Source: a virus
IMG/VR virus record: IMGVR_UViG_3300046753_000530
Coordinates: 1 to 39,028 of that record
Strand: one strand, 5' to 3'
DNA: 39,028 nt
Of this stretch, positions 759-38,833 are shown in pieces. The position numbers and the translations under genes are program-made. The notes under the pieces were generated by a model that had not been told where the DNA came from, searched no databases, and saw nothing but the letters and a program-made list of their open reading frames with translations. Position 1 is the first letter of the stretch. Every line of letters begins with the position of its first letter.

Positions 759-790
759 GCGTAGTAAGCGTAGTTTTTGTAGTTTGTAGA
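759..790 (+). repeat. Iterated GTAG units before the first structural gene
   Basis: GTAG recurs at 761, 770, 779 and 786, giving steps of 9, 9 and 7 bases. The first three units read GCGTAGTAA, GCGTAGTTT and TTGTAGTTT, and the last merges with the TAGAAT hexamer at 787. They occupy the place where a -35 box or activator site would lie. This looks like a small direct-repeat operator, but chance is possible in such T- and AG-rich DNA. Confidence 0.35.
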
Positions 791-792
791 AT
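787..792 (+). promoter_or_regulatory. -10-like TAGAAT promoter
   Basis: TAGAATA begins 29 bases before the ATG at 816, the spacing shared by the recurring phage promoter motif. No -35 consensus is visible. Confidence 0.6.
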
Positions 793-815
793 AAGGTTAA
801 AGTCTTTAGTTAGCG

Positions 816-1967
816 ATGGAAAACAATTCAACAATTGGACAAGATTGGGAAGTTATTAAACAGAAGCTGCTAAACCCTATGGGAAATTGGCTGCAAGATG
901 CAGCAAAGAGCGGTAATCAAAATAATTCAAATATGAATTCAACGCAACAGGCGTTATATGAGCGTAGGTATGGGAAAAAGCCCCCTGCTAGTAAAACTAA
1001 ACCTGCTTCTTCACCTGCACCTGCACCTAGTGTCCCTGGTCAGAGTTCAGCTGCTCGTCCTGGTCAAGGACGTATGTCTAATCTCGGTCCAAAGTACAAA
1101 CAGCAAGAAATAGACATCGGAAAGAAGGCAGAAGAATTTCGCCCCGGTGCTGGATTCCCTGGTCAACAGGCAACTGGTCGTGGAGCCGGTGCTCCTGATG
1201 GAAGTGGTGCTAAAGGAACCCAGACAAGCCCCCGTCAAATGACGATGGATGATGCAAATAGCCTGCTTTCTGACGGATATAAAATGACGAATCCGTTCTC
1301 AAGTACGCAATTGCCGGACACATCCGGTAGTCCTTACTTTGGCGAGGCCGCAACACCCACATATCGCAGCGATGCGCTTGTTGATATTTACGATTCGGAG
1401 CTTTCACGGGACTTGACCACTGGATCACCTTTTGTAGAAGGCGATTACAACTTCGAAATCCCCACGAAAACCAATATTGACTACCTTCAGCTGTCTGGTG
1501 CCCCACTAACCCAGGAAAGTGGCGTCGTTAAGGCGTCTGAAACCACCGAAACTGCAGCTCAAGCGCCGCAATCCAGAATTCCTAAGCGTCCTCGGGGCGA
1601 AAGAGCCGCCGCTGCGTGGGATCGCAAGTACGGTCGCATCAATCAGCAGCCTGAACCCACCGAGTCCAAGGGATTCTCCATCGATAAAGCGCGTCGTGAT
1701 GCTTTCTTCTCTGGTGAAAACGTAATGCAGGGCATGAAGAACATGGATTCCATGTATGGCTTCAAATATGCCGGCGGTCAATACAACATGGTGAACCCAG
1801 ATAAGAATAAAGATACTGATCCGGACTTCGTCAAGATGGATAAGCAGGATTATCGGGACTTCAAAAACAAAAAGATCAAAGCAGAGGAATTGAAGAGCCG
1901 ATATATGGAACGAGTGGGCAAATCTAAAGATGAGCCGGAAGATACTTCTACGTCCCCTAAGAAATAG
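816..1967 (+). CDS. Probable virion protein, disordered, with two ERRYG-type motifs
   Basis: This 383-residue protein is rich in Pro, Ser, Gly, Gln and Lys and looks largely disordered. I do not recognise a family. It contains an internal repeat, QALYERRYGK at about 46-55 and AAAWDRKYGR at about 266-275. Related ERRYG or ERNYG endings occur at the C-termini of two other proteins in this window. The C-terminus is highly charged (many K, D, E). A TAGAAT promoter lies 29 bases upstream and an inverted repeat with the next promoter follows its stop. It is the first gene of the rightward structural array. A minor virion or assembly protein is the best guess, made from position only. Confidence 0.6.
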   Translation: MENNSTIGQDWEVIKQKLLNPMGNWLQDAAKSGNQNNSNMNSTQQALYERRYGKKPPASKTKPASSPAPAPSVPGQSSAARPGQGRMSNLGPKYKQQEIDIGKKAEEFRPGAGFPGQQATGRGAGAPDGSGAKGTQTSPRQMTMDDANSLLSDGYKMTNPFSSTQLPDTSGSPYFGEAATPTYRSDALVDIYDSELSRDLTTGSPFVEGDYNFEIPTKTNIDYLQLSGAPLTQESGVVKASETTETAAQAPQSRIPKRPRGERAAAAWDRKYGRINQQPEPTESKGFSIDKARRDAFFSGENVMQGMKNMDSMYGFKYAGGQYNMVNPDKNKDTDPDFVKMDKQDYRDFKNKKIKAEELKSRYMERVGKSKDEPEDTSTSPKK

Positions 1968-1979
1968 CACGAATATAAA

Positions 1980-2010
1980 GTATCTACAATAGATAAAGGT
2001 TTGTAGATAC
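1980..2010 (+). promoter_or_regulatory. TACAAT promoter inside a 9-bp inverted repeat
   Basis: TACAATA (hexamer 1985-1990) starts 32 bases before the GTG at 2017. It lies in a perfect 9-bp inverted repeat, GTATCTACA (1980-1988) and TGTAGATAC (2002-2010), with a 13-base spacer. The repeat could be an operator over the promoter or a transcript-start hairpin. Confidence 0.6.
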
Positions 2011-2016
2011 TTAATC

Positions 2017-4581
2017 GTGAGCTTAGAAGACACTCAAAAGCTAATTAACGGTGCTGAAGTCATCGGAGCGGGTAGAACGCTTGGAATGACAGACGATGAG
2101 ACGCTTGAAACAAAACGAGCCACTCTTCGTAGGGATATTGAGCGTCGTCGTAAGCAAAGAGCAGATAGAGAAGGTAATCGAGCGCAAGCTGAGCAATTCT
2201 TAGCTGATGATGATGCTTCTTTCCAGACAAAAGGAAGAAATCGAACATCTGATCAAAAAGTTCGTGGTGTTCGGGTAGATGAAGACTTTCCAGATCCGTT
2301 TGGAAGCTTTGAAGAGCGTATATATGACGATGATGGCGTTTTGCGTGAAACACGTAAGGCTGAAGAAGATTTTCAGACGTATGACGCGGATGAAACAGAA
2401 AGATTTGGCATTAAAGGGGAATCATCTCGTCGTCGTGGTGAAGCTGACCCCGGATTGCTACAAGAACGCGGTAATTATGTAATTCTGAACCGTGACACGC
2501 CTCAAGAGAAACGATATTGGCGTGAAGGACGCAAGGTTGCACAGACTGGCATGAGAGATGCTGCTTCTCGTGCAGAACGACCAGCTCAACCTCGGTATTA
2601 CAAAAAACCAGAGAACGCTGCTGGTTCACGACGTCCTGATTTTGGTAAAGGCAGTCAGCGTGACATTCGTATTGCACCAAATGCAAATTCTGCACAAGAA
2701 GCTATTTCAGAAGCACGTAGAACACGTGAAACAGGTAAAGCATTAGTCCAAGGAGACAGCGGTCGGTTTAGTCCTACTGCTCGTGCTGCGAGTGATTCAA
2801 AAGCCTTCTCTGAAGCTCAGGAAATAGGTCGAGACTTCACTATTAACGGCAATCTTGGAATTGGCGACGAAAACATCGGTTATATCCAAGAAGTGCGTTC
2901 TCTTGGCACTGCTGGACCTGCTGGTCACGGATTTACCGGAAATATCCAAGTCGTTACTCCAAACAACGCAAATAACTTTGGAATTGCAAGTCCTCTGACC
3001 CGTGAAGATCAAGTTGTTGGATATTACGGCGAAGAAGACGGTGCGATGGTCCAACTGGGTGAAATCAACTCACCTGGTACTCGACAGGCTCTGAATGTTC
3101 CTGAATTCACTCCTGGTCAAGAATGGGTGGTTGGAAACCGTCCAAACATGGCAACACCTGGTGGAACTAGCTTCGGCATGCCTCAGGTGAACATCAAAGA
3201 GCAAATCGGCTTGTTTGGTGAGCGCATGCGCGGTATGGGAATGGGTATGGAGGGATTTGGCAATCCTCGTAGTCTTCCTGAGTTTGAAGCTGCAGTTTCC
3301 TCAATTCTGGCAAGAGGTCAGCAAGCAGGTAAGACTTTCTACCGCTTTGATGAAGCTGCTGGTAAAAACGTCGTGGTTCCTCAGCCTGGCATCGACGATG
3401 TGCTTTATGGCATGCGTTATACGGCGCAAGAGAAGCAAGCGTTGGCAAATGCCCTTCTTCAGCTGGATACCTCACTCAATCGTGACGTAAACCTGGACCG
3501 CAAGGAAGCGTTCCTTGATCGTCGTCCTCAGACCCTTAGTGAGCAGCCGATCTACAAAGGTGTTGATCCAGTGAGCTCCACGCCACTAGAAAAAATTAAA
3601 AATGAGAAAGTAGGTAGGGGTAAGAAGCGTGAAAGCGTGGGAGCTTCTCTGCGTGCACTGAATGAGGAAGCTGTAGTCAAATCTCTGATAGAGAAAGGTG
3701 AATTCGCCACTGAAGATGGTGTGATGCTGCCAAACGCTGCTCGTGACATCCAAGCTGCTCGTGATGCACGTGACGATGCCAAACGTCCTTTCTACGGAGC
3801 AGTTGCAGGTGAAGGCGCTCCCCGTGCTCAGTTCATCCGTGGTGGAGACAGAGGCAAGAGCCTTCAAGAGCTACAAGGTCAGTTCGGTGAAGAACAGGGT
3901 CGTATTGCGTTTGAGGTAGAGCAACGGGCACTTAAGGATGAAGAGCGCAAGCGCACCGCTCCGACTACAGATCCGTTTGCAGCTAAACAGCGTGCAGCCG
4001 ATGCCAGCTTTGAAGCACAAGGCAGGCAAGCAGCTCGTGACTTCGAAGACGTTGAGATTGCCAGGTTGTATTCCTTGATTAAGCAAGGCAAGCTGCAAGT
4101 ACCTGCTGACAGTGAGTTTGTTGACCCCAACCTCTTTGCCACTCAAAAGCAATCTGCTGTAGCCGCTGATCCAACACCTAAGACCCCAGGTAGCTGGATG
4201 GGTGGACCTGGATCTGGAAAGGTTGTAAGTGCTTGGAACAGGGATCCTGATCCTAAGCCCACTCAACGTATTGAACAGGCTCCAGTGCCTAATTCAATTT
4301 CACCTGATCCTTGGGCATCCTCCGCATCCTTTGATGCTGCTATTGGTAGAGAGATTCAACGACGTAGTCCACAACAGACTTCAAACAGTAAGTCTTACAT
4401 GGCACTGCCTGATGGTCCTAAATCAAAACCATCTGAAGGACGCAAGCGCCGTGTTATCTCTGATCAAATTAACCGGACAAATAGGTTTAAAAGAGGTGGC
4501 GCCATAAGTGCTGCTGCACTAGGAACAGTTCTTGGTTTAAGTACCATGGGTAAAGACGAAGAGGAACGCAACTATGGCTGA
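2017..4581 (+). CDS. Large probable virion protein (854 aa)
   Basis: This 854-residue, strongly charged, Arg/Glu/Asp-rich protein has no family I recognise. The first 250 residues look helical and disordered (TLRRDIERRRKQRADREGNRA). A more folded-looking Gly-rich part spans about 270-420. The C-terminus changes to a basic stretch followed by a short hydrophobic Ala/Gly segment (GGAISAAALGTVLGLSTMG) and ends EERNYG, an ending shared with other proteins here. The start is GTG, chosen because it sits 32 bases after a TACAAT promoter. It overlaps the next gene by 8 bases, so the two are probably co-translated. The hydrophobic tail and the Gly-zipper neighbours suggest an internal or ejected virion protein. 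This is an inference. Confidence 0.65.
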   Translation: MSLEDTQKLINGAEVIGAGRTLGMTDDETLETKRATLRRDIERRRKQRADREGNRAQAEQFLADDDASFQTKGRNRTSDQKVRGVRVDEDFPDPFGSFEERIYDDDGVLRETRKAEEDFQTYDADETERFGIKGESSRRRGEADPGLLQERGNYVILNRDTPQEKRYWREGRKVAQTGMRDAASRAERPAQPRYYKKPENAAGSRRPDFGKGSQRDIRIAPNANSAQEAISEARRTRETGKALVQGDSGRFSPTARAASDSKAFSEAQEIGRDFTINGNLGIGDENIGYIQEVRSLGTAGPAGHGFTGNIQVVTPNNANNFGIASPLTREDQVVGYYGEEDGAMVQLGEINSPGTRQALNVPEFTPGQEWVVGNRPNMATPGGTSFGMPQVNIKEQIGLFGERMRGMGMGMEGFGNPRSLPEFEAAVSSILARGQQAGKTFYRFDEAAGKNVVVPQPGIDDVLYGMRYTAQEKQALANALLQLDTSLNRDVNLDRKEAFLDRRPQTLSEQPIYKGVDPVSSTPLEKIKNEKVGRGKKRESVGASLRALNEEAVVKSLIEKGEFATEDGVMLPNAARDIQAARDARDDAKRPFYGAVAGEGAPRAQFIRGGDRGKSLQELQGQFGEEQGRIAFEVEQRALKDEERKRTAPTTDPFAAKQRAADASFEAQGRQAARDFEDVEIARLYSLIKQGKLQVPADSEFVDPNLFATQKQSAVAADPTPKTPGSWMGGPGSGKVVSAWNRDPDPKPTQRIEQAPVPNSISPDPWASSASFDAAIGREIQRRSPQQTSNSKSYMALPDGPKSKPSEGRKRRVISDQINRTNRFKRGGAISAAALGTVLGLSTMGKDEEERNYG

Positions 4582-7085: not shown

Positions 7086-7088
7086 ATA
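7083..7088 (+). promoter_or_regulatory. Weak -10-like TAGATA
   Basis: TAGATA overlaps the upstream stop codon and lies 33 bases before the ATG at 7116. It is a poorer match to the recurrent motif. An ACTAG-ATAAA-CTAGT inverted repeat (7081-7095) surrounds it. Confidence 0.3.
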
Positions 7089-7115
7089 AACTAGTAAAAG
7101 ATTAGCAGTAATGTA

Positions 7116-7817
7116 ATGGCACGTTTCGCAGGATCAGTTTCATTATCAGTACCTAACTTTGGACGTAGTGCCCAGGTAAAGGTAGACGGTTGGCAAGGTC
7201 AGATGGCTGGTCAAACGACTGCTGCTGGTAATGCTGCAGATGCTGTGAGTGTAGGTAACCTCTACGGAAGCCTTCGTAAGAATGCACCTGACTACTCAAA
7301 GATCACGCAGGTTGGACTTGGAAATAAGTCTGCAGAGAAACTTGCAGGATGGAACGCAGCAGCCAACATGACTGCAGCAGGTATTGACGCTGCTAAGAGT
7401 ATTGCTGTTGCCAAGAATCAGGCAGAAGTCTATAACGAACAAGCTTCTGCTGCGAGCAAAGGTGGAGCTATGAGTGCAATCGGTGGTATTGCTTCCGCTG
7501 CTATTGGTCTGATCAGTGATGAGACTACAAAGCATACGATTGATCAGATTGATGATGCACTAGATACACTGCGTCAGCTGCGTCCTGTTACCTTCTTCTA
7601 TAAGGATGAGTACAGTGCACAGCCTGAGCGTATGCATTACGGGTTCCTTGCACAGGAATATCAAACCGTGATGCCCGATGCGACTTACTTCGATGAAGCC
7701 ATCGGCAAGATGTGTATTGACACCAACGAATTGATTGCACTGCTGGTGCGTGCTAATCAACAACTCGAATCCCGTGTTGTAAGGCTTGAAGCAAAACAAG
7801 CTTTAGCAGCTGTGTAA
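7116..7817 (+). CDS. Gly-zipper virion protein with S74 self-cleaving chaperone
   Basis: This 233-residue protein has two parts. Residues 1-133 resemble the preceding gene product: RFAG start, Ala/Gln-rich helix, and a zipper segment SAIGGIASAAIGLI. Residues 134-233 match the peptidase S74 intramolecular chaperone pattern: SDETTKHTI with the Ser134/Lys139 pair spaced as in SDxxxK of the family, then LRPVTFFYKDE, HYGFLAQE, and a final helical coiled coil (ELIALLVRANQQLESRVVRLEAK). S74 domains normally help trimeric fibres or spikes fold and are then cut off just before the catalytic Ser, which would leave a 133-residue mature protein. Finding one behind a membrane-active segment is unusual. 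It may assemble a trimeric ejection or tail-tip component. The domain call is confident; the role is inferred. Confidence 0.75.
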   Translation: MARFAGSVSLSVPNFGRSAQVKVDGWQGQMAGQTTAAGNAADAVSVGNLYGSLRKNAPDYSKITQVGLGNKSAEKLAGWNAAANMTAAGIDAAKSIAVAKNQAEVYNEQASAASKGGAMSAIGGIASAAIGLISDETTKHTIDQIDDALDTLRQLRPVTFFYKDEYSAQPERMHYGFLAQEYQTVMPDATYFDEAIGKMCIDTNELIALLVRANQQLESRVVRLEAKQALAAV

Positions 7818-7820
7818 AAT
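7815..7820 (+). promoter_or_regulatory. -10-like TAAAAT
   Basis: TAAAATAG spans the stop of the upstream gene and starts 33 bases before the ATG at 7848, close to the usual spacing of the motif. Confidence 0.45.
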
Positions 7821-7847
7821 AGTAAAAGCACACCCTGTGTAAATATA

Positions 7848-8513
7848 ATGTCTGATCTTTATTTGACGCCAGCAGAAAGAGCAAAACAACTCAGAGATTC
7901 AACTCGTACCGGTAACTGGTTTCAGGATACGTTTACTGACATCGTTACCCCTGGTATCACTAAAAAAGAAGATGGTAGCATCAGCAGGGAAGGTGCCGCC
8001 TGGTGGCTCCAGGGTCTAACTCCTGGTGCAGACTCAATCGCTGATCAAAAGCAAGAACTTGATGAATCAAGAGTAATTCATAGGGAAGTCCAGAATTCAC
8101 AACTTACACCTGCTCAAATCAAAGCGGCATCTGGTGGTCAAAAGCTGACCTCTGGTAATGTTGGTGGAATTATTGCGGAGGGACAACGAACAGTCACCGA
8201 TCGACTTTCACCTGCAGAAAGAGCACAGATTAGCTACCAAAAAGATAGCCTTGGCGCAACAATTGCAAGCACGAATTCAACCAACGAAAGACTTCTGCAA
8301 CAAGGTGCACAGTCCCATCAGTTGGCTTTGATCCAAGCTGCAGATGCACGTGATGCAAGTGCACAATCACTTGCTTTGCAACAACAGCAACTTATCCGCG
8401 AAGATCAACGCTACAACGAGCGTATGGAGCAGCTCGATCGTCGTGATCGTAAGCAAGGACGTCAATCACTTATTGCTGGACTAGCCGCACTTGGTGCAGC
8501 TTTTGCCCTGTAA
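7848..8513 (+). CDS. Probable internal virion protein with C-terminal hydrophobic helix
   Basis: This 221-residue protein is hydrophilic, with a Gln-rich helical second half (about 140-205: QSLALQQQQLIREDQRYNER). It ends in a short hydrophobic segment, SLIAGLAALGAAFAL. Single-helix tails of this kind recur in this gene block. It is the last rightward gene before the leftward transglycosylase gene, and the two stop codons abut (8513/8514). No family is recognised. A membrane-anchored or ejected virion protein is inferred from composition and context. Confidence 0.6.
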   Translation: MSDLYLTPAERAKQLRDSTRTGNWFQDTFTDIVTPGITKKEDGSISREGAAWWLQGLTPGADSIADQKQELDESRVIHREVQNSQLTPAQIKAASGGQKLTSGNVGGIIAEGQRTVTDRLSPAERAQISYQKDSLGATIASTNSTNERLLQQGAQSHQLALIQAADARDASAQSLALQQQQLIREDQRYNERMEQLDRRDRKQGRQSLIAGLAALGAAFAL

Positions 8514-9392
8514 TTAAAAGTTATTGTAACTACCGTTGGTATAAGCACCCCAAGCTCCCCAACCTTGTTGCTGATAAATCTTATGGGCAGCTTTCATATT
8601 AGTAAGCGGATCATATAGCTCTTCATTTGAGGTTAGACCAAACTGAGAACGTCGCTCTGGTCCCATATCACCCAGCATATTAATTTGCATGATTCCGTAG
8701 CTTTGATCAGCACCCTTGCCGTTAAAAGCCGTAGGATTACCGCTACTCTCACCCATAGCAATTTTTGCTACAAGAGGTGCATCTTTTTGTGAGAATCCTC
8801 CTTGCACTGCAAGTGCCTCAAGTTCTTGTTGATTGTAGATTTTACCTGGTTTGGGCGGAGTGTATGAAGTTGAACCACTACTTCCTGAATCAGAAGATCC
8901 TGAAGGTCCGGAAGATCCAGGCAATTCAATAGGTTTGTATCCGCCCGTAAGATCTACTTCTTCAGCTTGCGTTCTAAGCTCTTCAGCTTTGGTTTTATTC
9001 GTTTCAATAAGTGCGGCGTAACCCTCAGCACTTTCACCAACATTTCGTTTGGTACGTGACTCTTGCCCTAACTTATCACCAGCATCAGCAACAAGCTGGC
9101 CACCAGCAGCAAGTACACCAGCCTTACGTTTACTCTTACGGTATTTCATCTCACCGTCTGTTTTAATCTTGTCAGACTTGACGTCTGCAGCAGCTTTAAT
9201 GCCACGTGAGGTGATTTCACCTTTGATCTTCATCGCAGCAATCTTTTCTTTTGCACGAATGGTATCAGCAGCAATTACTTGCTCATCAGCTTTCGGTGAG
9301 TACGAACGTGCTACATCAAAGGTATTTTCAAAATCACGAGCAACCGCTTTACCTGATTGAGAGTAATCACTAACTCTTGCGTTGAACTTCAT
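8514..9392 (-). CDS. Virion-type lytic transglycosylase (SLT-like) protein
   Basis: This 292-residue leftward gene has three parts. Residues 1-150 are a helical, charged N-terminus with a small Gly/Ala segment (AGVLAAGGQLVADAG). A Gly/Ser/Pro linker spans about 155-182. Residues 186-292 form a lysozyme-like transglycosylase SLT domain with Glu215 in GESSGN as the likely catalytic residue, QSYGIMQINM, and a WGAWGAY C-terminal motif. It should cut peptidoglycan glycan strands. The helical N-terminus and its place among ejection-type genes suggest a virion-carried enzyme that opens the wall during entry, comparable in role to the SLT domain of T7 gp16. It could instead serve lysis. The start is supported by a minus-strand TAGAAT 29 bases upstream. 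Confidence 0.8.
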   Translation of the reverse strand: MKFNARVSDYSQSGKAVARDFENTFDVARSYSPKADEQVIAADTIRAKEKIAAMKIKGEITSRGIKAAADVKSDKIKTDGEMKYRKSKRKAGVLAAGGQLVADAGDKLGQESRTKRNVGESAEGYAALIETNKTKAEELRTQAEEVDLTGGYKPIELPGSSGPSGSSDSGSSGSTSYTPPKPGKIYNQQELEALAVQGGFSQKDAPLVAKIAMGESSGNPTAFNGKGADQSYGIMQINMLGDMGPERRSQFGLTSNEELYDPLTNMKAAHKIYQQQGWGAWGAYTNGSYNNF

Positions 9393-9415
9393 ATCCGTAG
9401 ACGTGACTTTCTACC

Positions 9416-9421
9416 ATTCTA
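9416..9421 (-). promoter_or_regulatory. -10-like TAGAAT promoter (leftward)
   Basis: The minus-strand TAGAAT starts at 9421, 29 bases before the ATG at 9392. With the plus-strand copy at 9440 it forms a divergent promoter pair. Confidence 0.6.
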
Positions 9422-9439
9422 TTAATTCTTTGAAAAATG

Positions 9440-9445
9440 TAGAAT
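9440..9445 (+). promoter_or_regulatory. -10-like TAGAAT promoter (rightward)
   Basis: TAGAATAGAAAT begins 30 bases before the ATG at 9470. The longer TAGAATAGAAAT form also occurs at 37764. Confidence 0.65.
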
Positions 9446-9469
9446 AGAAATATTGATAGCGCTTGCAAA

Positions 9470-11511: not shown

Positions 11512-13050
11512 ATGGCTATTGCAAGTTCTTCGTTAGCGTTAAAACGTGCCGCTTTGATGACGGCTACGAAAGTAACAACCAAACCACCTAGCGAAGAAGT
11601 TCTAAGAGCAAGAGATGATTTCCATGACTTCTGTTGCTTTATGGGTAAGAAGCCTGCAAAGCACATGTTGGAATGGCACAACGAACTATGCACAGGAGAA
11701 GATAGTGAATGTCTAATAGGAATCAGCGGACCCAATACATCGATCCTCGCACCACGTGGATCTGCGAAAAGTACTGTCCTTGGTTTGTATGCAGCCTGGA
11801 TGATCGGGAGACATGCTGCTGCCAAGCAAATGCTGCGCATTCTGTACATCGCATACATGGTGGATATTAGTCGTGCAAAATCAGCAACCATCAAAGGTAT
11901 TCTCCAAAGTAATAAATATCGTGAAGTCTTTCCTATGGTTAGACTTTCGAAAATCAAAAGGTCTGACGAATACTGGTCAATCGACTACGAGTTTGCGGGA
12001 ATTGATACAGCAGGTGAGGAAGCTTTCACAATTGCGTGTGGTGGTCTCAAAGGTGCAATCACCTCTAAACGATCGCAGTTGGTGCTTATTGATGACCCTA
12101 TCAAATCTGCCGCTTCAATCAACAACCCAGACATTCGCCGTGAGATGGAGCAGACGTGGTCTAACGTTATCGCACCAACGATGTTCCAAGGTGCACGGGC
12201 TATTTGTCTGGGAACGCGCTTCCACTTTAACGATATTCACGCAACACTCTTTGTGCCCAAGAACAATTGGAAGCAGATAGTTCAACAGGCGGTAATTACA
12301 GACGCTGACGGAAGGCAACGTAGTTACTGGCCTGAGTTCTGGTCGATGAAGTACCTGAACGAACGCAAGATGGAAGACCGTGTTGCATTCGCTTACCAGT
12401 ACCTCAACACCGCAGTCAAGACAACAGAAGTTGGTATCTCACCAGAGCTGATTGTCAAAGGAGAGATCCCTGAAGACTACGACTGCCTAGGTGTAGGTAT
12501 TGACCTTAGTGCTGGTCTATCAGAAAAGAATGACTGGACAGTTATGACGTTAGGGGGAATTAAAGATGGAAAGATTTATATGATTGACCAACGACGTGAG
12601 CGAACGATGGGCAACATCCAAAAGATGGACACGCTCTGTCAGATGCTTGCTGATTGGAACATCTTGCTTGAGAACGATGATGGTCAGTTCTTCCCGACTA
12701 TGTCACCGTGCATGATCTGGCCTGAAGCAGTTGCATATCAAACATCGTTCGAGGGTGACTTCAAACGAATTATGCATGAAGACCGTTCACTATATAACTT
12801 GTCAGTATCACCAGTGAAAGGATTCAAAGGTGACAAGCTTGCTCGCTTGCGTGGTGTCCTGGGTGTATATGAGCACAAAAAAGTAGTCTGGAACAAGTGG
12901 CGTAAGTGGACTGTACTTGAAGATGAACTACTGAACTTTGGTCATTCACAACATGATGATGCTGTGGATTCGATGGTGTTAACTATGGGCGGATTGTTGA
13001 GAAGGGGAAGTTTACAAATTGACTACAATAGTGATAGCTTTGAACTCTAA
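11512..13050 (+). CDS. terL: Terminase large subunit
   Basis: This 512-residue protein is the ATP-driven DNA packaging motor and nuclease. The ATPase part carries a Walker A-type P-loop LAPRGSAKST at residues 79-88, a Walker B LVLIDDPI at 190-197 with adjacent acidic residues, and a coupling motif CLGTRFHFND at about 232-241. The C-terminal nuclease part has GVGIDLSAG with Asp331, and near the end GHSQHDDAVDSM with clustered Asp residues, as in the RNase H-like fold of large terminases. Length and motif order are complete. It stands in the middle of the structural genes rather than at their head. The start ATG is preceded by an inverted repeat instead of a clear ribosome site. Confidence 0.9.
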   Translation: MAIASSSLALKRAALMTATKVTTKPPSEEVLRARDDFHDFCCFMGKKPAKHMLEWHNELCTGEDSECLIGISGPNTSILAPRGSAKSTVLGLYAAWMIGRHAAAKQMLRILYIAYMVDISRAKSATIKGILQSNKYREVFPMVRLSKIKRSDEYWSIDYEFAGIDTAGEEAFTIACGGLKGAITSKRSQLVLIDDPIKSAASINNPDIRREMEQTWSNVIAPTMFQGARAICLGTRFHFNDIHATLFVPKNNWKQIVQQAVITDADGRQRSYWPEFWSMKYLNERKMEDRVAFAYQYLNTAVKTTEVGISPELIVKGEIPEDYDCLGVGIDLSAGLSEKNDWTVMTLGGIKDGKIYMIDQRRERTMGNIQKMDTLCQMLADWNILLENDDGQFFPTMSPCMIWPEAVAYQTSFEGDFKRIMHEDRSLYNLSVSPVKGFKGDKLARLRGVLGVYEHKKVVWNKWRKWTVLEDELLNFGHSQHDDAVDSMVLTMGGLLRRGSLQIDYNSDSFEL

Positions 13051-13599: not shown

Positions 13600-13605
13600 T
13601 ACAAT
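13600..13605 (+). promoter_or_regulatory. -10-like TACAAT promoter
   Basis: TACAAT begins 29 bases before the ATG at 13629, matching the spacing of the other copies, although it is followed by TT rather than A. Confidence 0.55.
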
Positions 13606-13628
13606 TTAAATAACGCCTAAATACTGAT

Positions 13629-17312: not shown

Positions 17313-17318
17313 TACAAT
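17313..17318 (+). promoter_or_regulatory. -10-like TACAAT promoter
   Basis: TACAATA begins 31 bases before the ATG at 17344. The spacing favours that ATG over an in-frame TTG at 17326. Confidence 0.65.
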
Positions 17319-17343
17319 ATAAGTATTGACTAAGAGATTTACG

Positions 17344-17825: not shown

Positions 17826-17831
17826 TACAAT
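17826..17831 (+). promoter_or_regulatory. -10-like TACAAT promoter
   Basis: TACAATAAGTATT begins 32 bases before the ATG at 17858. A very similar TACAATATAAGTATT occurs at 17313. Confidence 0.65.
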
Positions 17832-17857
17832 AAGTATTAGTCGTAGACGATAAATCC

Positions 17858-18148: not shown

Positions 18149-18172
18149 ATCACATATAGGCTTGCTAATTAG

Positions 18173-18190
18173 TAGAATATAGGTTATATT
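18173..18190 (+). promoter_or_regulatory. Possible tandem promoters for the sigma factor gene
   Basis: TAGAATA (18173-18179) lies 42 bases before the ATG, further than usual. TATATT (18185-18190) lies at the usual 30 bases. The sigma gene may have two start sites, one of the phage-motif type and one more conventional. Confidence 0.5.
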
Positions 18191-19155: not shown

Positions 19156-19161
19156 TACAAT
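19156..19161 (+). promoter_or_regulatory. -10-like TACAAT promoter
   Basis: TACAATAGAAGGTAGG begins 31 bases before the ATG at 19187, three bases after the sigma factor stop. Confidence 0.65.
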
Positions 19162-19186
19162 AGAAGGTAGGTTATGCGCGACTGTA

Positions 19187-20268: not shown

Positions 20269-20655
20269 TTAAATACCTTCTTCTATTTTAGACATCTTTT
20301 GATCTGCGCGTTTCGTCCACTTTAAATTGTCCACCCGATTGTTAGTCTTGTTACCGTCTATATGTTTAACAACGCTGCATCCTTTCTTCTTCCCATAAGG
20401 AGTAGGTGGCAGACCAAGAAAAGCAAATGCAACCAACGTGTGAATAGGAATGGTCATTAGTTTCTTTCGTCCAATACGTTGCGTCAGATTGACAACAGGG
20501 TATCCAGTCTTTGCAATCTTAGGTTTAAGAATACGTTCGATAGTCCCTTTAGTGCTTTTTATGTCACCTTTGTCGTTTACGTAATATTCAATACAGCACT
20601 CAAATCCTGGCAGAGTATGAACAGGAATCCACTTATTGCTATCAATAAATTCCAT
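20269..20655 (-). CDS. HNH homing endonuclease (NUMOD4/HNH type)
   Basis: This 128-residue protein has an N-terminal NUMOD4-like DNA-binding part (NKWIPVHTLPGFE, YYVNDKGDIKSTKG). The HNH_3-type nuclease core carries IPIHTLVAFAFLG with His72 and VVKHIDGNKTNNRVDNLKW with His98 and the following Asn residues. Such enzymes nick or cut DNA at one site and spread their own gene between related phages. It is free-standing and leftward, directly upstream of the major capsid gene, a region where homing genes are often found. A minus-strand TATACT lies 30 bases upstream of its ATG. No intron or intein boundary is apparent around it. Confidence 0.85.
   Translation of the reverse strand: MEFIDSNKWIPVHTLPGFECCIEYYVNDKGDIKSTKGTIERILKPKIAKTGYPVVNLTQRIGRKKLMTIPIHTLVAFAFLGLPPTPYGKKKGCSVVKHIDGNKTNNRVDNLKWTKRADQKMSKIEEGI
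20285..20290 (-). promoter_or_regulatory. -10-like TAAAAT promoter (leftward)
   Basis: The minus-strand TAAAATAGAAG starts at 20290, 31 bases before the ATG at 20259. It lies within the last codons of the HNH gene. Confidence 0.5.
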
Positions 20656-20679
20656 AATATCCTTGGGTATTCATATCTA

Positions 20680-20685
20680 AGTATA
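20680..20685 (-). promoter_or_regulatory. -10-like TATACT promoter (leftward)
   Basis: The minus-strand TATACT starts at 20685, 30 bases before the HNH ATG at 20655. It is closer to a standard sigma-70 -10 box than to the TA(G/C)AATA form. Confidence 0.4.
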
Positions 20686-20752: not shown

Positions 20753-20762
20753 TTACGATCCT

Positions 20763-22560: not shown

Positions 22561-22563
22561 GTC

Positions 22564-22569
22564 TATAAT
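22564..22569 (+). promoter_or_regulatory. -10-like TATAAT promoter
   Basis: TATAATA begins 29 bases before the ATG at 22593 and directly follows the terminator's T-run. Confidence 0.65.
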
Positions 22570-22592
22570 AATGAAGTGAGCATTACCCCAAT

Positions 22593-23024
22593 ATGAGTAA
22601 TTTATTCCAAGATACGAAGACCGGTAAGTTAGTCGAATTCATCCATAAGCATGACAAAGAGTATGCGATGGTTCGTGACGCTAGCGGTAATATCACCTAT
22701 GTGACCCTTGATCAACTCGTTCCTTACAGCAAAGAAAAGGGACGTCTTGCAAAAGTCGCGGCACCACAAATCCAACCAGAACCGGAAGAGCAAGCCCCTG
22801 CTTCTGTTGTCCCGATTGAAGACACCCGTCTCAATCTCAACACTGCACCTCCTGAGCAGATTGCAAAGCGCCTGCCTGGTGTTGGTTATGCCACAGCTAA
22901 GCGCATCGTTGAACTGCGTATGTCACTCTCAGGTGAGCGCTTTAGCAACCTCAAGCAACTTGAAAACATTCCCCGCGTTAACTGGGAACAGTTGATTGAG
23001 GAAGACCTTATCTTCATTAGTTAA
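22593..23024 (+). CDS. Helix-hairpin-helix protein in the head-completion cluster
   Basis: This 143-residue protein has an N-terminal half that looks like a small beta barrel (TGKLVEFIHKHDKEYAMVRD, NITYVTLDQLVPYS). An acidic Pro-rich linker follows. The C-terminal part is a ComEA-like double helix-hairpin-helix with LNLNTAPPEQIAKRLPGVGY, ATAKRIVELR and FSNLKQLENIPRVNWEQL. HhH motifs bind DNA backbone without sequence preference. In a block of head-completion genes it could contact packaged DNA at the head vertex or act as a head-tail adaptor. Its domain is clear but its phage role is not. Confidence 0.75.
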   Translation: MSNLFQDTKTGKLVEFIHKHDKEYAMVRDASGNITYVTLDQLVPYSKEKGRLAKVAAPQIQPEPEEQAPASVVPIEDTRLNLNTAPPEQIAKRLPGVGYATAKRIVELRMSLSGERFSNLKQLENIPRVNWEQLIEEDLIFIS

Positions 23025-23026
23025 AC

Positions 23027-23036
23027 TAGATATAGT
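23027..23036 (+). promoter_or_regulatory. Weak -10-like TAGATATAGT
   Basis: Overlapping TAGATA and TATAGT lie 25 and 21 bases before the ATG at 23052, closer than usual and only partly matching the recurrent motif. Confidence 0.25.
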
Positions 23037-23953: not shown

Positions 23954-23959
23954 TAGAAT
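23954..23959 (+). promoter_or_regulatory. -10-like TAGAAT promoter
   Basis: TAGTAGAATAG (hexamer at 23954) begins 32 bases before the ATG at 23986. The same TAGTAGAATA string occurs at 18170 and 37761. Confidence 0.65.
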
Positions 23960-23985
23960 AGTTTTAGGAATCATCAGTATTAATC

Positions 23986-27336: not shown

Positions 27337-27342
27337 TACAAT
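27337..27342 (+). promoter_or_regulatory. -10-like TACAAT promoter
   Basis: TACAATAGAAGTAG begins 30 bases before the GTG at 27367. This supports the GTG as the true start. Confidence 0.65.
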
Positions 27343-27366
27343 AGAAGTAGTGTTTTAAGTACCGGC

Positions 27367-30942: not shown

Positions 30943-31172
30943 TGTTTAAATCAGATGATTTCAACTTATCTCTAGAGCAGGAACTAAAACTTCGTGTTGT
31001 CAACGACGAAATAGACAACTGCACAAGTGTTGAATCACTCCAGAAAGAACTGAAGTCTGCGACAACACTCCTCATGAAATATCAAAAGATAATCAATACA
31101 CTAGTCAAAAATCAGATCACAAGAGACCTGGCAGATTTCGGATTAATTGTAGAAGAAAGAGGGTTAAAATAG
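30942..31172 (+). CDS. NblA-like small protein (candidate phycobilisome-degradation adaptor)
   Basis: This 76-residue protein is counted from ATG 30942; an in-frame GTG lies 3 bases earlier. It is almost all helical. Its core LSLEQELKLRVVNDEI, a second helix with SVESLQKELKSATTLLMKYQ and IINTLVKNQI follow the NblA layout: LSLEQ plus an LR helix, a turn, then a long helix with LM and Y spaced before a basic C-terminal region. NblA guides ClpC protease to phycobilisomes during nutrient stress. If true, the phage would make the host dismantle its light-harvesting antennae and free amino acids. The similarity is by eye and short, so other small helical families remain possible. It lies between fibre genes and is coupled to the putative membrane protein. 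Confidence 0.4.
   Translation: MFKSDDFNLSLEQELKLRVVNDEIDNCTSVESLQKELKSATTLLMKYQKIINTLVKNQITRDLADFGLIVEERGLK
31165..31170 (+). promoter_or_regulatory. -10-like TAAAAT promoter
   Basis: TAAAATAG spans the stop of the NblA-like gene and begins 32 bases before the ATG at 31197. A small hairpin GTAGG/CCTAC (31172-31186) follows in the leader. Confidence 0.45.
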
Positions 31173-31196
31173 TAGGAGACGCCTACATTTTGACAG

Positions 31197-31715
31197 ATGC
31201 CATTAGAAGGTGAATTTAGAAATAGATTTAACAGGAACTACATTTGGGTGATTCCAGACAATCTGGGACCTGGTACTTGGCGTTTGACTGCTGACAGTGA
31301 GGAGGTTGAACCGCCTACTCCAGAGGGTCTCTTCCAAGCAATTGTAGATGAAAACTCACCTACCATTCAGGAAGGTCAGCTCGTTTACATCACTCCTTCC
31401 GGTACAGCTGCTCTAGCTTCGTCTTCGTCAATTGCTACAGGACGACCAGTGGGTGTGGCAGCAAACTCTGCTACTCCAAACTCACTTATTAATATCGGAG
31501 CAAACAAGGTTGTCAGCCTGACAGACATAAGCGTTGTTGTAGAAGGTGCCCCTACTCAATTTGAAACTGGTAGATACTACTGGCTATCAACTGAACCTGG
31601 CAAATTTACGAGAGATCCTGATACGACTACTTCAGGCTCGGTACTGATTCAGTGTGGTCTTGCTGTATCTACTAGCGAGATGCAAATTGAAATCCAAAAA
31701 CCCTTGGTAATTTGA
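31197..31715 (+). CDS. Fibre-cluster structural protein
   Basis: This 172-residue protein has a basic, aromatic N-terminus (FRNRFNRNYIWVIPDNLGPG) followed by beta strands rich in Thr/Ser/Ala/Val (GQLVYITPSGTAALASSSSI, YYWLSTEPGKF). The strand-rich middle resembles short repeats found in phage fibre and spike proteins. It lies between the NblA-like gene and a five-repeat fibre and is followed by it after one base. A small fibre or fibre-attachment subunit is the most likely role. Confidence 0.55.
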   Translation: MPLEGEFRNRFNRNYIWVIPDNLGPGTWRLTADSEEVEPPTPEGLFQAIVDENSPTIQEGQLVYITPSGTAALASSSSIATGRPVGVAANSATPNSLINIGANKVVSLTDISVVVEGAPTQFETGRYYWLSTEPGKFTRDPDTTTSGSVLIQCGLAVSTSEMQIEIQKPLVI

Positions 31716-32779: not shown

Positions 32780-32785
32780 TAGAAT
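32780..32785 (+). promoter_or_regulatory. -10-like TAGAAT promoter with long leader
   Basis: TAGAATATA lies 45 bases before the ATG at 32825, about 15 more than usual. The leader contains GGATTTTTATCC, a small inverted repeat, and two TTTTT runs. Confidence 0.5.
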
Positions 32786-32824
32786 ATACATAGGATTTTT
32801 ATCCCGTCGTAAGGGTTTTTACCG

Positions 32825-34963
32825 ATGAAACTACAGTTAAAGCGTTCAAATGTCCTGGCAAGCGGTGGCGCCAAAGAACCAACAGCAGCACAGTTGGAGT
32901 ACGGCGAACTTGCCATTAACTACAACAAAGATGATCCGGCAATTTTCCTAAAAGACAGCAACAATAATGTTATTCGTATTAGCGGTGTTAACAATATTGC
33001 TGATGACGGGCAAGTAGAACTGCCTGAATCCAGCACGCCTCCAGCCAATCCTCTGCCTGGAAACCTTTGGTTTAACTCAGAAGACGGACGTCTCTATATC
33101 TATTACAAGGATCCAGATACCGAGCAGTGGGTCGATGCCAGTCCTGACAGCTGGGATCCTACAAGCTATCCCAACCTGGCTGACGACACTGCGCAGGCAG
33201 GAACATTAGATGATCGATATCTGATGCTCAATACTGCCAACAATCCAGTTACTGGTGCAGTAAATATTAATAATAAAATTAATCTGGCTACAGACGGTAG
33301 TGGTGACTTTGATGCAAACGTCACTGCAAACCGTTTTATTGGACCTCTCACAGGTAATGTGACGGGTAACGTAACAGGAACTATTACTGGTAACGCTGAT
33401 ACTGCAACCAGAGCACTTGATGCAGATAACGCTGACAAACTCGGCAATCAGACCCCTGCTTACTATCGCAACGCAACGAACATCAACGCAGGTACTCTTA
33501 ACGACGACCGTTTGCCAGCAACGATTAGTTCAAACATTACTGGTAGTTCAGCCAGCTGTACTGGTAACTCTGCAACTGCAACGACAGCAACTAACATAGA
33601 CCGTAAGCAAATTACCACGAGCAATAACTCAGCATATAGAATTCTTCTAGGCGATCCTAGTAATAATGCTGGTCCGTCACAAGCAAAGGTTGTTACCGAC
33701 GCATCACGTTGTTATTACAATCCCAATACAAATGTCCTCGCTGGTATTGCAAGATTTACTGGTAAATCAGACACAGCAGGCGATGCAGATGACTCTGCCA
33801 AACTGAATGGTCAGAACGCTGCTTACTATCGCAACGCAACAAACATCAACGCTGGTACGCTTAGCGACGCTCGTTTGCCTAACACGATCAGCTCAGATAT
33901 TACTGGCACTGCAGCTGACTCAGATAAACTAAGCGGACAAGTCAGAACAGATGCTGCATCTGGAGATACTGTTGTCAGTAGAACTGCAAACGCTGATGTT
34001 AATGTGCGCTTGATAAGATCAAATTTCGGAAATCAAGCCACCATTTCAGGTGGAATGGTTTTCAGGGTTAATGATAGTAGCGATAACTATTTACGTACCT
34101 GCAACGACACCGCAGCGATTCGTACATTCTTGAATGTCCCGACAAGGACTGGTGGCAACGCTTCAGGTACTTGGGGCATCAGTATTACTGGCTCTGCAGG
34201 CAGCGCTACTAATGCGACTAACTGTCGTATTGATCACGACACTGGCAACGCTTGGCATCGAATCGTAATGATTGACGACGGAAAGGATTCCGCAAGTAAT
34301 AACCGATTGAAGACAGATAGTGCTTCAACTATTGCTATTAACCCAAGCACCAACCAAGTTCGTGCAACAACCTTCGTCGGTGCCCTGAGTGGTAACGCAA
34401 CTAGTGCTACTAATGCTGGCAAACTAGATAACATCGATAGCACGGCGTTCCTCCGTAGCAATACAAGCGATCAATTTACTTCTGGAACACTGAGATTTAA
34501 CGATAACTGCGTCCTGGGAATGGGTAGTGGTACTGATGCAGAACTCTTCTGCAACGGCTCTCATCTTTACCTTGATTTGAATAGTGGCATCGGTAACTTT
34601 TATATCCGCGATGGTACGACTACTCGTTTTACCTTTGATGACGCAGGCAGTTTCACTGCCACCGCAAACATCACTGCATACTCTGATATCTCACTGAAAG
34701 AGAATATTGAGACGATCCCGAATGCACTCGATAAAGTCCTTGCCTTGCGTGGTGTTGAATATAACCGTATTGATTTGGAAGAGAAGCCTCGTCAAATTGG
34801 TGTCATCGCACAGGAAATTGAAGAGGTCATCCCTGAAGTTGTTTTAACTGATGAAGAAGGTATCAAGTCCGTAGCCTACGGTAACTTGGTCGGTCTGCTT
34901 ATTGAATCTGTAAAGGAACTCAAAGCAGAAGTAAATGAGCTGAAAGCAAAACTGGAGGGTTGA
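32825..34963 (+). CDS. Tail fibre with C-terminal S74 chaperone domain
   Basis: This 712-residue protein opens with MKLQLKRSNV and EPTAAQLEYGELAINYN, FLKDSNNNVIRISG, an N-terminal module known in T4-like marine cyanophage fibres. The shaft has two near-identical 42-residue repeats (DADNADKLGNQTPAYYRNAT and DADDSAKLNGQNAAYYRNAT, each with NINAGTL.D.RLP). The C-terminus from residue 619 is an S74 chaperone: YSDISLKENI with Ser620/Lys625 as the autocleavage pair, IGVIAQEIEEV, VAYGNLVGLLIESVKEL and a final coiled coil. It trimerises the fibre and is then released, giving a mature protein of about 619 residues. It is probably the receptor-binding fibre. Confidence 0.85.
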   Translation: MKLQLKRSNVLASGGAKEPTAAQLEYGELAINYNKDDPAIFLKDSNNNVIRISGVNNIADDGQVELPESSTPPANPLPGNLWFNSEDGRLYIYYKDPDTEQWVDASPDSWDPTSYPNLADDTAQAGTLDDRYLMLNTANNPVTGAVNINNKINLATDGSGDFDANVTANRFIGPLTGNVTGNVTGTITGNADTATRALDADNADKLGNQTPAYYRNATNINAGTLNDDRLPATISSNITGSSASCTGNSATATTATNIDRKQITTSNNSAYRILLGDPSNNAGPSQAKVVTDASRCYYNPNTNVLAGIARFTGKSDTAGDADDSAKLNGQNAAYYRNATNINAGTLSDARLPNTISSDITGTAADSDKLSGQVRTDAASGDTVVSRTANADVNVRLIRSNFGNQATISGGMVFRVNDSSDNYLRTCNDTAAIRTFLNVPTRTGGNASGTWGISITGSAGSATNATNCRIDHDTGNAWHRIVMIDDGKDSASNNRLKTDSASTIAINPSTNQVRATTFVGALSGNATSATNAGKLDNIDSTAFLRSNTSDQFTSGTLRFNDNCVLGMGSGTDAELFCNGSHLYLDLNSGIGNFYIRDGTTTRFTFDDAGSFTATANITAYSDISLKENIETIPNALDKVLALRGVEYNRIDLEEKPRQIGVIAQEIEEVIPEVVLTDEEGIKSVAYGNLVGLLIESVKELKAEVNELKAKLEG
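33419..33543 (+). repeat. Fibre repeat, copy 1 (125 bp)
   Basis: This is similar to 33782-33906 and encodes the YYRNATNINAGTL module. The high base identity makes recombination between copies possible. Confidence 0.75.
33782..33906 (+). repeat. Fibre repeat, copy 2 (125 bp)
   Basis: This is the second copy of the segment at 33419-33543, offset by 363 bases and therefore in frame. Confidence 0.75.
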
Positions 34964-37763: not shown

Positions 37764-37769
37764 TAGAAT
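37764..37769 (+). promoter_or_regulatory. -10-like TAGAAT promoter
   Basis: TAGTAGAATAGAAAT (hexamer at 37764) begins 29 bases before the ATG at 37793. It is one of the best copies of the motif. Confidence 0.7.
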
Positions 37770-37792
37770 AGAAATATCTTAAAAGAGTAGAA

Positions 37793-38065
37793 ATGGCTCA
37801 GATTAATTTTCCTGTTGCAACTGCAGATGGTCAAGTATTTGAAGCACCTACTGGTGTTGTATATACGTATGTAGGAACGCCTCCTAATGGCTATTGGTCT
37901 GGCACATTTCAGTCCCCAGTTCTTACCGATTTTGATACCCGTTATCTGAAGCTTAATACCAGCAATATTGCTACATACGCTGATGACACAGCCGCTGGAA
38001 CTGGTGGTCTTGCAACAGGTGATATCTACAAGACCTCTACTGGTGAACTGAAAGTCAAGCTGTAG
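37793..38065 (+). CDS. Small fibre-type protein
   Basis: This 90-residue protein starts MAQINFPVATADGQVFEAPT with TGVVYTYVG and NGYWSG, and ends TGGLATGDIYKTSTGELKVKL. The first half matches the one-module adaptor type at 29175. The second half is a strand motif common in marine phage structural proteins. It probably caps or links a fibre. It has its own promoter and ends facing the leftward C39 gene, their stops 18 bases apart, with no clear terminator between. Confidence 0.6.
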   Translation: MAQINFPVATADGQVFEAPTGVVYTYVGTPPNGYWSGTFQSPVLTDFDTRYLKLNTSNIATYADDTAAGTGGLATGDIYKTSTGELKVKL

Positions 38066-38083
38066 TAGCTAGCTCAACCTCTT

Positions 38084-38797
38084 CTACTTTTTTGCAGGAT
38101 CACGGATGTCAAGGTACCATCCATCTCCTTCACCTCCAACAATCCAACGGGGGTTGAAGTTCTTGAAGCTATAGCTTTGATTAGCTCCATTCTTGCTAGC
38201 GGCGTATCCACCGGGAACAAGGTTAGCTTCACCGTTTGGATCATTCATAATCCAAGAGCCAGGCTTGAAGCCAATAACAACAGACCAGTGACCACCACCG
38301 CTTGGTGCAGATACAGATCCTTTATGAAGCCAACCAACTGGAACAGGTCTACCTTGTCTAATAATTCTGCGAATGTCGTTAGTCGTACCCGTCGTTACGA
38401 ATTTTGCCTCTAGACCTAGTGCACGCAGAGCTTGGACCTGTGCACCAGCGTCAGTGCTATCTCCATATTTTGCACGTACAAGATTGTATTCATCATCATT
38501 CAGCACCTTGCCGTAGTACATAGCAACCATCGCACAGCTACTGGAGAAGCACTCTCGATAGCCAGTGCCTGATGCATTATCCAACTGAGACTGATATGGA
38601 ACATCCAGCTGAATACCATCAGTAGGTTCAGGCTTAGGCTCAGGCTTATTCCTATAAGTCTTAATCCACTCAGCATCTTCATCTTTAGATGCTAAATCTA
38701 AATTTCTATAAAGTTCTTCGACACCAGCCCTTTGGTGGTCCTGATCTTGATAATACTTGAAGAAATTTCTAAAATCTTCTAGGGTAATCTGTGCCAT
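38084..38797 (-). CDS. C39-type cysteine peptidase, endolysin candidate
   Basis: This leftward protein of 237 residues is counted from ATG 38797. An upstream in-frame ATG at 38821 would lie on the promoter hexamer, so it is rejected. Residues 1-35 (TLEDFRNFFKYYQDQDHQRA) look like a small helical cell-wall or targeting part. Residues 62-237 are a papain-like C39-family fold: DVPYQSQLDN with Gln69 or Gln71, ECFSSSCAMV with Cys88, GGGHWSVVIGF with His170 and NDPNG with Asp186. It should cleave peptides, most likely peptidoglycan cross-links for lysis. Such proteins are known in cyanophages. No signal sequence is present, so a holin would be needed. Confidence 0.75.
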   Translation of the reverse strand: MAQITLEDFRNFFKYYQDQDHQRAGVEELYRNLDLASKDEDAEWIKTYRNKPEPKPEPTDGIQLDVPYQSQLDNASGTGYRECFSSSCAMVAMYYGKVLNDDEYNLVRAKYGDSTDAGAQVQALRALGLEAKFVTTGTTNDIRRIIRQGRPVPVGWLHKGSVSAPSGGGHWSVVIGFKPGSWIMNDPNGEANLVPGGYAASKNGANQSYSFKNFNPRWIVGGEGDGWYLDIRDPAKK

Positions 38798-38819
38798 AAT
38801 AATTACAACTCTACAGGAC

Positions 38820-38833
38820 ATTCTATCTACAAT
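38820..38833. promoter_or_regulatory. Back-to-back divergent -10-like elements
   Basis: The minus-strand TAGAAT (38825 to 38820) lies 28 bases before the C39 ATG at 38797. The plus-strand TACAATA (38828-38833) lies 29 bases before the ATG at 38857. Only two bases separate them, so the two promoters should compete. Confidence 0.65.

Follow-up and report, generated by a model that had tools for sequence, protein, structure and literature searches.

A putative late promoter class built on -10 boxes, and a candidate sigma factor to read it, in the structural arm of a marine relative of cyanophage S-EIV1

The 39,028-nucleotide (nt) stretch analysed here (positions 1 to 39,028 of IMG/VR record IMGVR_UViG_3300046753_000530; hereafter the window) is a contig from a marine virus of cyanobacteria related to Synechococcus phage S-EIV1. 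In the phage collection S-EIV1 (KJ410740) is its nearest isolate, with 67% identity in the capsid protein and 55.6% in the terminase; IMG/VR contigs are much closer, with capsid proteins 80-96% identical in the best 80 of at least 598 capsid matches. The window represents the structural arm of the genome. It encodes the terminase, the major head protein, a large head-and-packaging protein (14535-16751), which from its gene position alone might be guessed to be the portal, tail fibre families, and one full-length sigma-70 factor of 312 residues possessing regions 1.2, 2, 3 and 4 (18215-19153, + strand). Many of the genes are preceded by a short element, TA(G/C)AATA (TASAATA), which looks like a -10 promoter box of the form TA(C/G/A)A(A/C)TA(G/T)(A/T) without a -35 box or TG extension, and of which the sigma factor is the proposed reader. 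Forty-seven genes were called by hand; a home-made caller recovered 40 of these, with 30 starts in agreement before refinement and 38 after.

TASAATA occurs 14 times in the window, and 13 copies stand on the coding strand 20-50 bases ahead of a start codon, where 0.26 are expected (p = 5e-22; 47 hand-called genes); the fourteenth, at 8528 (-), lies within the 3' end of gene 8514-9392. Dinucleotide shuffling of the 47 upstream regions yields a mean of 1.0 copies and a maximum of five in 500 trials. The 32,031 bases of gene interior (60 trimmed from each end) contain TASAATA on neither the sense nor the antisense strand, and the shorter TASAAT five times in sense and twice in antisense; in the upstream zones TASAAT is found 17 times on the coding strand versus five on the opposite one. 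Broken down by hexamer, eight of 12 copies of TAGAAT, nine of 16 of TACAAT and four of 13 of TAAAAT fall in the upstream zone. A preliminary description of this DNA had named 20 hexamers of this kind on both strands, all of which are present where it placed them, and its observation of a recurrent element is real. It had held that AT-richness alone could hardly suffice, as the shuffles bear out, and that an equal frequency inside genes or on the other strand would speak against a promoter class, which is not what the counts reveal. TATAAT and TATACT, which it had included, are not enriched, each placing one of five copies in the zone (p = 0.09).

A motif search against shuffled sequence, which the preliminary description had proposed, recovers the element: from 24 window gaps the de novo search returns TA[A/C/G]AATA(G/T)(A/T) with a score of 50.5, against 24-28 in four shuffles. 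Gaps with dinucleotide shuffles were used; with the whole genome as background the search wandered into AT-rich noise in 10 of 12 genomes, these being the window and eleven longer records (S-EIV1 and ten contigs, G001 to G010). The box is the top motif in five of the 12 (window, G001, G004, G006 and G010). In G003 and G005 a hairpin motif comes first, and in G002 and the four genomes without the sigma gene something else, the top motif of S-EIV1 being loosely -10-like. Pooling the structural arms of the seven sigma carriers recovers the box again.

For its anatomy we aligned 119 matches to a nine-column scoring matrix; the window supplied 19 of them and the structural arms of the seven carriers the other 100. 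The matrix thresholds were set by eye, and the pooled rows, being related by descent, do not count as independent events. The column 12 bases past the first T is A in 107 of the 119 sites (16 of 19 in the window alone). This column is not used by the matrix and is hence independent of site finding. Reading the hexamer as -12 to -7 puts the A at +1, a signature of a purine seven bases past the hexamer. What the sites possess is thus a sigma-70-type -10, TANNNT on the coding strand at a plausible leader distance, and not the -35/-10 arrangement of host SigA, there being no TTGACA-like box 16-18 nt upstream: five or more matches to TTGACA occur in six of 119 sites versus 12 of 119 in a control stretch, in line with the preliminary description, which saw no shared -35 box. 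A TG extension is present in nine of 119, and no strongly conserved column was seen upstream of the box in the 119 aligned sites. The distance from box to start codon is 29-33 bases in 87 of 119, which implies leaders of 17-21 nt in as many. Of the 18 window sites for which 28-33 bases had been claimed, 17 lie at 29-33, and 38825 (-) lies at 26 because the start of that gene is ambiguous; the copies at 18173 and 32780 are further away, at 42 and 45, as had been described.

Conservation was assessed at orthologous genes in 55 sigma-clade and 25 sigma-free targets. The sigma-clade label takes in contigs too short for the sigma gene, which were placed there on the strength of capsids at least 87% identical, and one contig (L052) was dropped as the twin of L053 from the ortholog, upstream, sigma-alignment and capsid-tree sets. 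The putative -10 is kept most fully ahead of genes 19864-20259 (TAAAATAGA, 20282..20290, -; 41/41 orthologs), 23986-24432 (TAGAATAGT, 23954..23962; 22/22), 19187-19867 (TACAATAGA, 19156..19164; 37/39), 17344-17820 (TACAATATA, 17313..17321, just 3' of a hairpin GGGGTCC/GGACCCC; 12/12) and 23052-23453 (TAAACTAGA, 23022..23030; 20/22), these and all sites below being on the + strand unless marked. It is kept in 24/36 orthologs of gene 17858-18148 (TACAATAAG, 17826..17834), 6/6 of gene 31197-31715 (TAAAATAGT, 31165..31173), 10/16 of the tail fibre gene 32825-34963 (TAGAATATA, 32780..32788, 45 nt from the start) and 4/6 of gene 27367-29175 (TACAATAGA, 27337..27345). Smaller samples are available for genes 13059-13598 (TACAATAGT, 13024..13032, in the end of the terminase gene; 2/2), 37793-38065 (TAGAATAGA, 37764..37772; 2/2), 8514-9392 (TAGAATGGT, 9413..9421, -; 1/1), 7116-7817 (TAAACTAGT, 7087..7095; 1/2) and 9470-10654 (TAGAATAGA, 9440..9448; 0/3). 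The boxes at 7087 and 23022 (both TAAACTA) and at 13024 were absent from the preliminary description. No orthologs were found for genes 816-1967 (TAGAATAAG, 787..795, with a predicted +1 A at 799), 2017-4581 (TACAATAGA, 1985..1993) and 7848-8513 (TAAAATAGT, 7815..7823, overlapping the stop codon of the upstream gene). A further predicted late -10, TACAATAGT at 38828..38836, precedes gene 38857-, which is cut by the contig end.

Two copies are less certain: TACAATTTA at 13600..13608, before gene 13629-14498, is a weaker candidate under the matrix threshold and outside the 19 window matches, and TAGAATGTC at 38817..38825 (-), for which no orthologs were found, is doubtful and overlaps an alternative ATG of gene 38084-38799/38821. 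Divergent gene pairs at 9413-9448 and 38817-38836 carry compact back-to-back boxes, the minus-strand copy of the second pair being the doubtful one. The third base of the box tends to be gene-specific across orthologs. Three window genes without a box have orthologs that mostly lack it too (0/47, 2/44 and 1/32); two others without a window match have it in part of their orthologs (gene 14535, 13/27; gene 11512, 4/16). In the sigma-free targets, 2 of 125 orthologs were scored as members of the class.

The sigma gene is present in seven of the 11 longer records and was not found in G007, G008, G009 and S-EIV1. A search of seven records for Sigma70 region 2 gave no match in any of these four, and one for region 4 gave a single sub-threshold match in G008, with stops inside, and none in S-EIV1. 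Among the 80 capsid loci, 41 hold the gene. In fifteen sigma-negative loci, with capsids at least 88% identical, the upstream stretch is no longer than 1.8 kb and could not accommodate it, and 24 loci at 80-83% capsid identity are without it, 19 of these with more than 3 kb upstream. A single branch of the capsid tree (support 98/78) separates all 41 carriers, together with 15 undecided contigs, from 19 non-carriers and five further undecided contigs, and S-EIV1 stands far out; an automatic count gave 12 changes, with undecided rows taken as a group of their own. For one carrier with a capsid at only 82% identity, L085, an independent gain was considered and rejected, since its long branch is nested within the sigma clade.

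In a quick tree of sigma proteins (55 of 119 rows, midpoint root, a long-branch warning and no reference SigA-E rows) those of the phages form one group (99%) next to picocyanobacterial sigmas, with identities of 57-60% to the nearest of these. Regions 2.3-3.0 are nearly identical to host group-2 relatives; the region 4.2 helix reads RDRVRT in eight phage sequences versus RDRVRN or RDKTRN in five picocyanobacterial ones. From the annotation of phage relatives, we take the window protein to be of group 2. It most likely descends from the picocyanobacterial group-2 lineage, and it is probably a copy of a bacterial control protein captured from a host by a phage ancestor. Phage-type sigmas, 84% and 78% identical, are also encoded on two contigs of metagenome-assembled genomes labelled Crocinitomicaceae (L130) and Blastopirellula (L131), which are probably misbinned phage DNA.

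The sigma gene itself appears to be served by a different promoter. The window has a -35 element, TTGCTA (18162..18167, +), and 17 nt past it a -10 element, TATATT (18185..18190, +), and under a lenient -35 pattern all 37 distinct upstream regions possess a -35-like box, a spacer of 17-18 nt and TANNNT, the last at 27-32 bases from the start codon. The -35-like box contains TTGA or TAGACA in 33 of the 37. The same test applied to four late genes succeeds in 0/42, 3/22, 2/38 and 1/34 upstreams. At +1 there is no preference for A (15 A, 16 T and 6 G; n = 37). The TAGAATA at 18173, which the preliminary description counted as the site of this gene's promoter, was rejected, because it sits in the spacer of the TTGCTA-17-TATATT arrangement seen in 37 of 37. 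Elsewhere in the carriers, TTGAC plus spacer plus TANNNT ahead of early genes was found three times versus three on the other strand, of 249.

Two further sites also appear to belong to another promoter type, since their forms are not enriched and their orthologs in sigma-clade targets seldom score as the late class: TATACTTAG (20677..20685, -; T at position 3) before gene 20269-20655, with 6/50, and TATAATAAT (22564..22572, +) before gene 22593-23024, with 0/50. The latter gene has 22 orthologs among the 25 sigma-free targets. At 22535-22570 a terminator-like hairpin with a T run directly precedes TGTCTATAATAA, and in 25 of the 26 closest rows the hairpin is followed by TATAAT ahead of gene 22593, with TATACT in one. 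The proposal of a promoter class before single genes and short operons therefore stands in part: the de novo motif, the A at +1, the lack of a TTGACA signal and the conservation in orthologs support it, and 18173, 22564 and 20685 (-) are not members.

Across relatives the box was counted 18-60 bases upstream of automatically called genes, a basis on which the window scores 12 of 14 TASAATA. Each of the seven carriers has 11-19 upstream copies against 0.5-1.0 expected (G001 16/27, G002 19/28, G003 16/23, G004 17/29, G005 12/22, G006 11/17, G010 15/22). The sigma-free counts are 0/0 (G007), 4/12 (G008), 3/9 (G009) and 3/14 (S-EIV1); the zero says little because G007 has a guanine-plus-cytosine (GC) content of 59%, and it was left out of the sigma-free arm-gap count. 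In gaps of the widened arms TASAATA stands upstream in 3 of 93 cases in sigma-free relatives versus 72 of 246 in carriers, and the looser TA[ACG]A[AC]TA in 14 of 93 versus 111 of 246. At a matrix score of at least 8, a box stands in carriers ahead of 88 of 145 structural-arm genes that follow a gap, versus 74 of 351 such genes elsewhere; in the four sigma-free genomes the figures are 5 of 60 and 17 of 209. The arm contrast is significant singly in six of seven carriers (p 0.02 to 8e-6), and in the replication arm of G003 (1-23 kb) boxes that score high and stand at the usual distance are almost absent. The class is concentrated before virion genes as a matter of rate, and is not exclusive to them.

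Several other features were seen in passing. A hairpin at 20703-20762 (+), upstream of the capsid gene, has a covarying stem and a loop that is nearly constant, with GTCGA invariant in 31 chosen sigma-clade rows; 97.8% of 186 stem cells are paired, with 17 changed on both sides versus 3.0 in shuffles, and the number of pairs with change on both sides is three, a count that is not unusual. By eye, sigma-free relatives have other hairpins there. Might this be a leader structure of the capsid mRNA? G003 and G005 each possess 21 hairpins with a TAAC loop, often with CTAACG or TTAACA closure, mostly in replication arms (L096-L099, L105-L108); all but one are on one strand, frequently with T runs after them and frequently 40-50 bases ahead of the gene that follows. 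Counts for six other tetraloops reach at most five per genome, and the window has no TAAC hairpins. An intergenic repeat, CTACACTAACTAC...TATATACCC, lies at 668-699 of the window; its full form is found in G005 (three copies) and G010 (one), and a shorter form in G001, G002, G005 and G010. The last 464 bases of gene 14535-16751 (16288-16751) are shared, in another frame, with gene 16288-17283, whose GTG start comes shortly past AAGGAGTTA. An Rfam scan of the window gave 0 matches.

The motif, its spacing, the A at +1, the lack of a -35 box, the conservation, the rate in the arm and the distinct promoter of the sigma gene can all be read in the DNA itself, and together they make it likely that the box serves as the -10 for a class of late promoters; host RNA polymerase with the phage sigma is the likeliest enzyme to open them. 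That the boxes are active promoters, are read by this factor and fire late is what we infer from these features. The presence of a -35/-10 promoter at the sigma gene suggests an order of events. Host holoenzyme would make the phage sigma from that promoter; the sigma, on host RNA polymerase, would then open single structural genes and short operons; and transcription would start at the A 12 bases past the first T, giving short leaders mostly without a Shine-Dalgarno sequence. More tentatively, and with rather less confidence, a captured host group-2 (stress-type) sigma may have become a dedicated late switch whose -10 preference, for C or G in place of the T favoured by the host, would keep host holoenzyme off the late genes; these would form fixed-A single-gene units with leaders lacking a Shine-Dalgarno sequence. 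A cyanobacterial precedent may be relevant: according to a review, SigD, and not SigA, used a mutant psbA promoter possessing only a -10 in vitro (PMC2758279), which makes a captured group-2 sigma on such promoters plausible without new specificity. According to the same source, SigA reads other -10-only cyanobacterial promoters with NtcA.

A number of observations weigh against reading by the phage sigma. Sigma carriage lies on one side of one branch and so provides a single evolutionary contrast. For the late-box genes no orthologs were detected among the 25 sigma-free targets, so that the comparison of orthologs does not set like against like. Three of the four sigma-free relatives are mildly enriched in TASAATA (p 2e-4 to 8e-3). 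In their arms TANA[AC]TA occurs 13 times forward and never in reverse (64 gaps of three genomes), and 12 of the 13 have A at +1; boxes of the same make in sigma-free relatives imply that host polymerase is probably able to use them unaided. The host-like regions 2.3-3.0 give no reason to expect a new -10 preference. In 10 of 37 upstreams the sigma gene has TAGAAT as its -10; the forms of the two promoter types therefore overlap, and the sigma may regulate its own gene. The box of gene 9470 is kept in none of three orthologs, the capsid gene has one in only 1 of 47, and the arm contrast in G006 is weak (p = 0.14). In the proxy host described below TAGAAT is itself strand-biased (17/8), and promoters of S. 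elongatus are reported to have a -10 of the form Ta-aaT, no -35 consensus and a favoured A at +1 (PMC3219970).

Some of these points lend themselves to another explanation, which we regard as unlikely: the boxes would be ordinary host-type -10 promoters, read by host primary or group-2 sigma throughout, and the phage sigma would serve otherwise, in reprogramming host genes or raising total transcription. The S. elongatus promoters, the +1 A shared by boxes of sigma-free relatives, the match of phage sigma region 2 to host group-2 sigmas and the strand-biased TAGAAT of the proxy all agree with it, as does Microcystis phage Ma-LMM01, which is without gp55 and whose three promoter classes are all SigA-like (PMC5780444). 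As a host proxy we used tandem gaps in 600 kb of Prochlorococcus HNLC1, a genome of differing GC content (29% in the first 200 kb). Scored by the third base, TA?A[AC]T forward and reverse in the phage arms is 36/3 for C, 40/5 for G, 22/9 for A and 13/4 for T, and in the proxy 8/19, 20/12, 105/104 and 57/29. By form, the phage arms have TAGAAT 34/2, TACAAT 29/1 and TATAAT 9/3; in the proxy TATAAT is the most strand-biased (43/20) and TACAAT under-represented (8/16). The C strongly favoured at the third base in the phage arms is thus scarce in this host stand-in, a point against host-type promoters. The first 200 kb of HNLC1 show no or little strand bias (93 vs 93 TANAAT), and an unguided motif search of the proxy gave a pyrimidine-then-purine motif and no -10. 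A Cyanobium at 68% GC and a Synechococcus stretch at 57% GC have too few TANAAT sites to compare. Exact TTGACA-N16-18-TATAAT occurs in none of six cyanobacterial genomes. The 10-mer TASAATAGAA has no excess over a reversed control in five cyanobacterial genomes, which also argues against host-type promoters, as do the rarity of boxes in sigma-free relatives (the 3/93 versus 72/246 gaps given above), their lower number outside the structural arm, where early genes should be found, and a -35 box kept by the sigma gene and not by late genes.

That the element is instead a translation or leader-RNA signal some 30 bases ahead of the start codon, with no promoter, appears very improbable. The tight distance would suit such a signal, as would the scarcity of Shine-Dalgarno-like matches, found at 13 of 118 box-led genes of the window and seven relatives versus 45 of 92 operon-internal genes. 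The conserved A, however, is kept relative to the box in 22 of the 27 sites whose start codon is at least 34 bases away, and no position 14-23 bases back from the ATG has A in more than 12 of those 27; it tracks the box and not the ATG, which argues for a transcription start. Operon-internal genes that were tested are also mostly without a box. Chance AT-richness of gaps, or the TAG and TAA stop codons of upstream genes, can be dismissed as next to impossible: although the box at 7815 does overlap a stop codon, TACAATA, which has no stop codon in that frame, is equally enriched, the shuffles give 1.0 against 13, and the scrambled TAA[GC]AT is upstream in 0 of 23 copies in the window and unenriched in any of 11 relatives.

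Placed among known systems, late promoters read by the phage sigma would have partial parallels. The late box of phage T4 is TATAAATA; the box here is TASAATA, and TATAAATA is upstream in 0 of 1 cases in the window. In G002 TATAAATA is found upstream of genes in 6 of 13 cases (p = 1e-6). The T4 late system, with gp55 (inferred for S-PM2 too), is similar in combining a phage sigma with a -10 box and no -35 conservation (PMC2988020). T4 gp55 is small, diverged and without a full region 4, and acts together with gp33 and a clamp, whereas the window sigma has regions 1.2 to 4. Cyanobacterial type 2 promoters resemble the window sites in having the -10 hexamer alone, the phage sigma being the proposed reader of the latter; those described may need the help of an activator, for instance NtcA (PMC2758279), whereas the window sites show no strongly conserved upstream column, and such promoters make up the greater part of one phage arm. 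Group-2 sigmas in cyanophages have been noted since at least 2009 (PMC2784084), and the cyanosiphoviruses P-SS2, S-CBS1, S-CBS3 and KBS-S-2A likewise possess group-2 or RpoD-type sigma genes (PMC2784084, PMC3751600). The P-SS2 sigma was proposed to read canonical sigma-70 promoters (PMC2784084), and the available portions of these two papers describe no dedicated promoter class. The window sigma is approximately 34-38% identical to those of S-CBS1, S-CBS3 and KBS-S-2A. S-EIV1 differs in having no match to the window sigma or to Sigma70 region 2 or 4, with TASAATA upstream in 3 of 14. Among the open-licence PMC matches listed, no title or opening of an abstract dealt with a late promoter class in S-EIV1-like phages.

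The sigma-carrying clade of cyanophages, met here as metagenomic contigs only, thus offers a promoter set and its candidate reader together, with sigma-free relatives as a natural comparison. For this clade there is now a promoter map, and a regulatory model that can be tested at the level of single bases. The findings further suggest that the transcription starts of uncultured phages are predictable from comparison alone.

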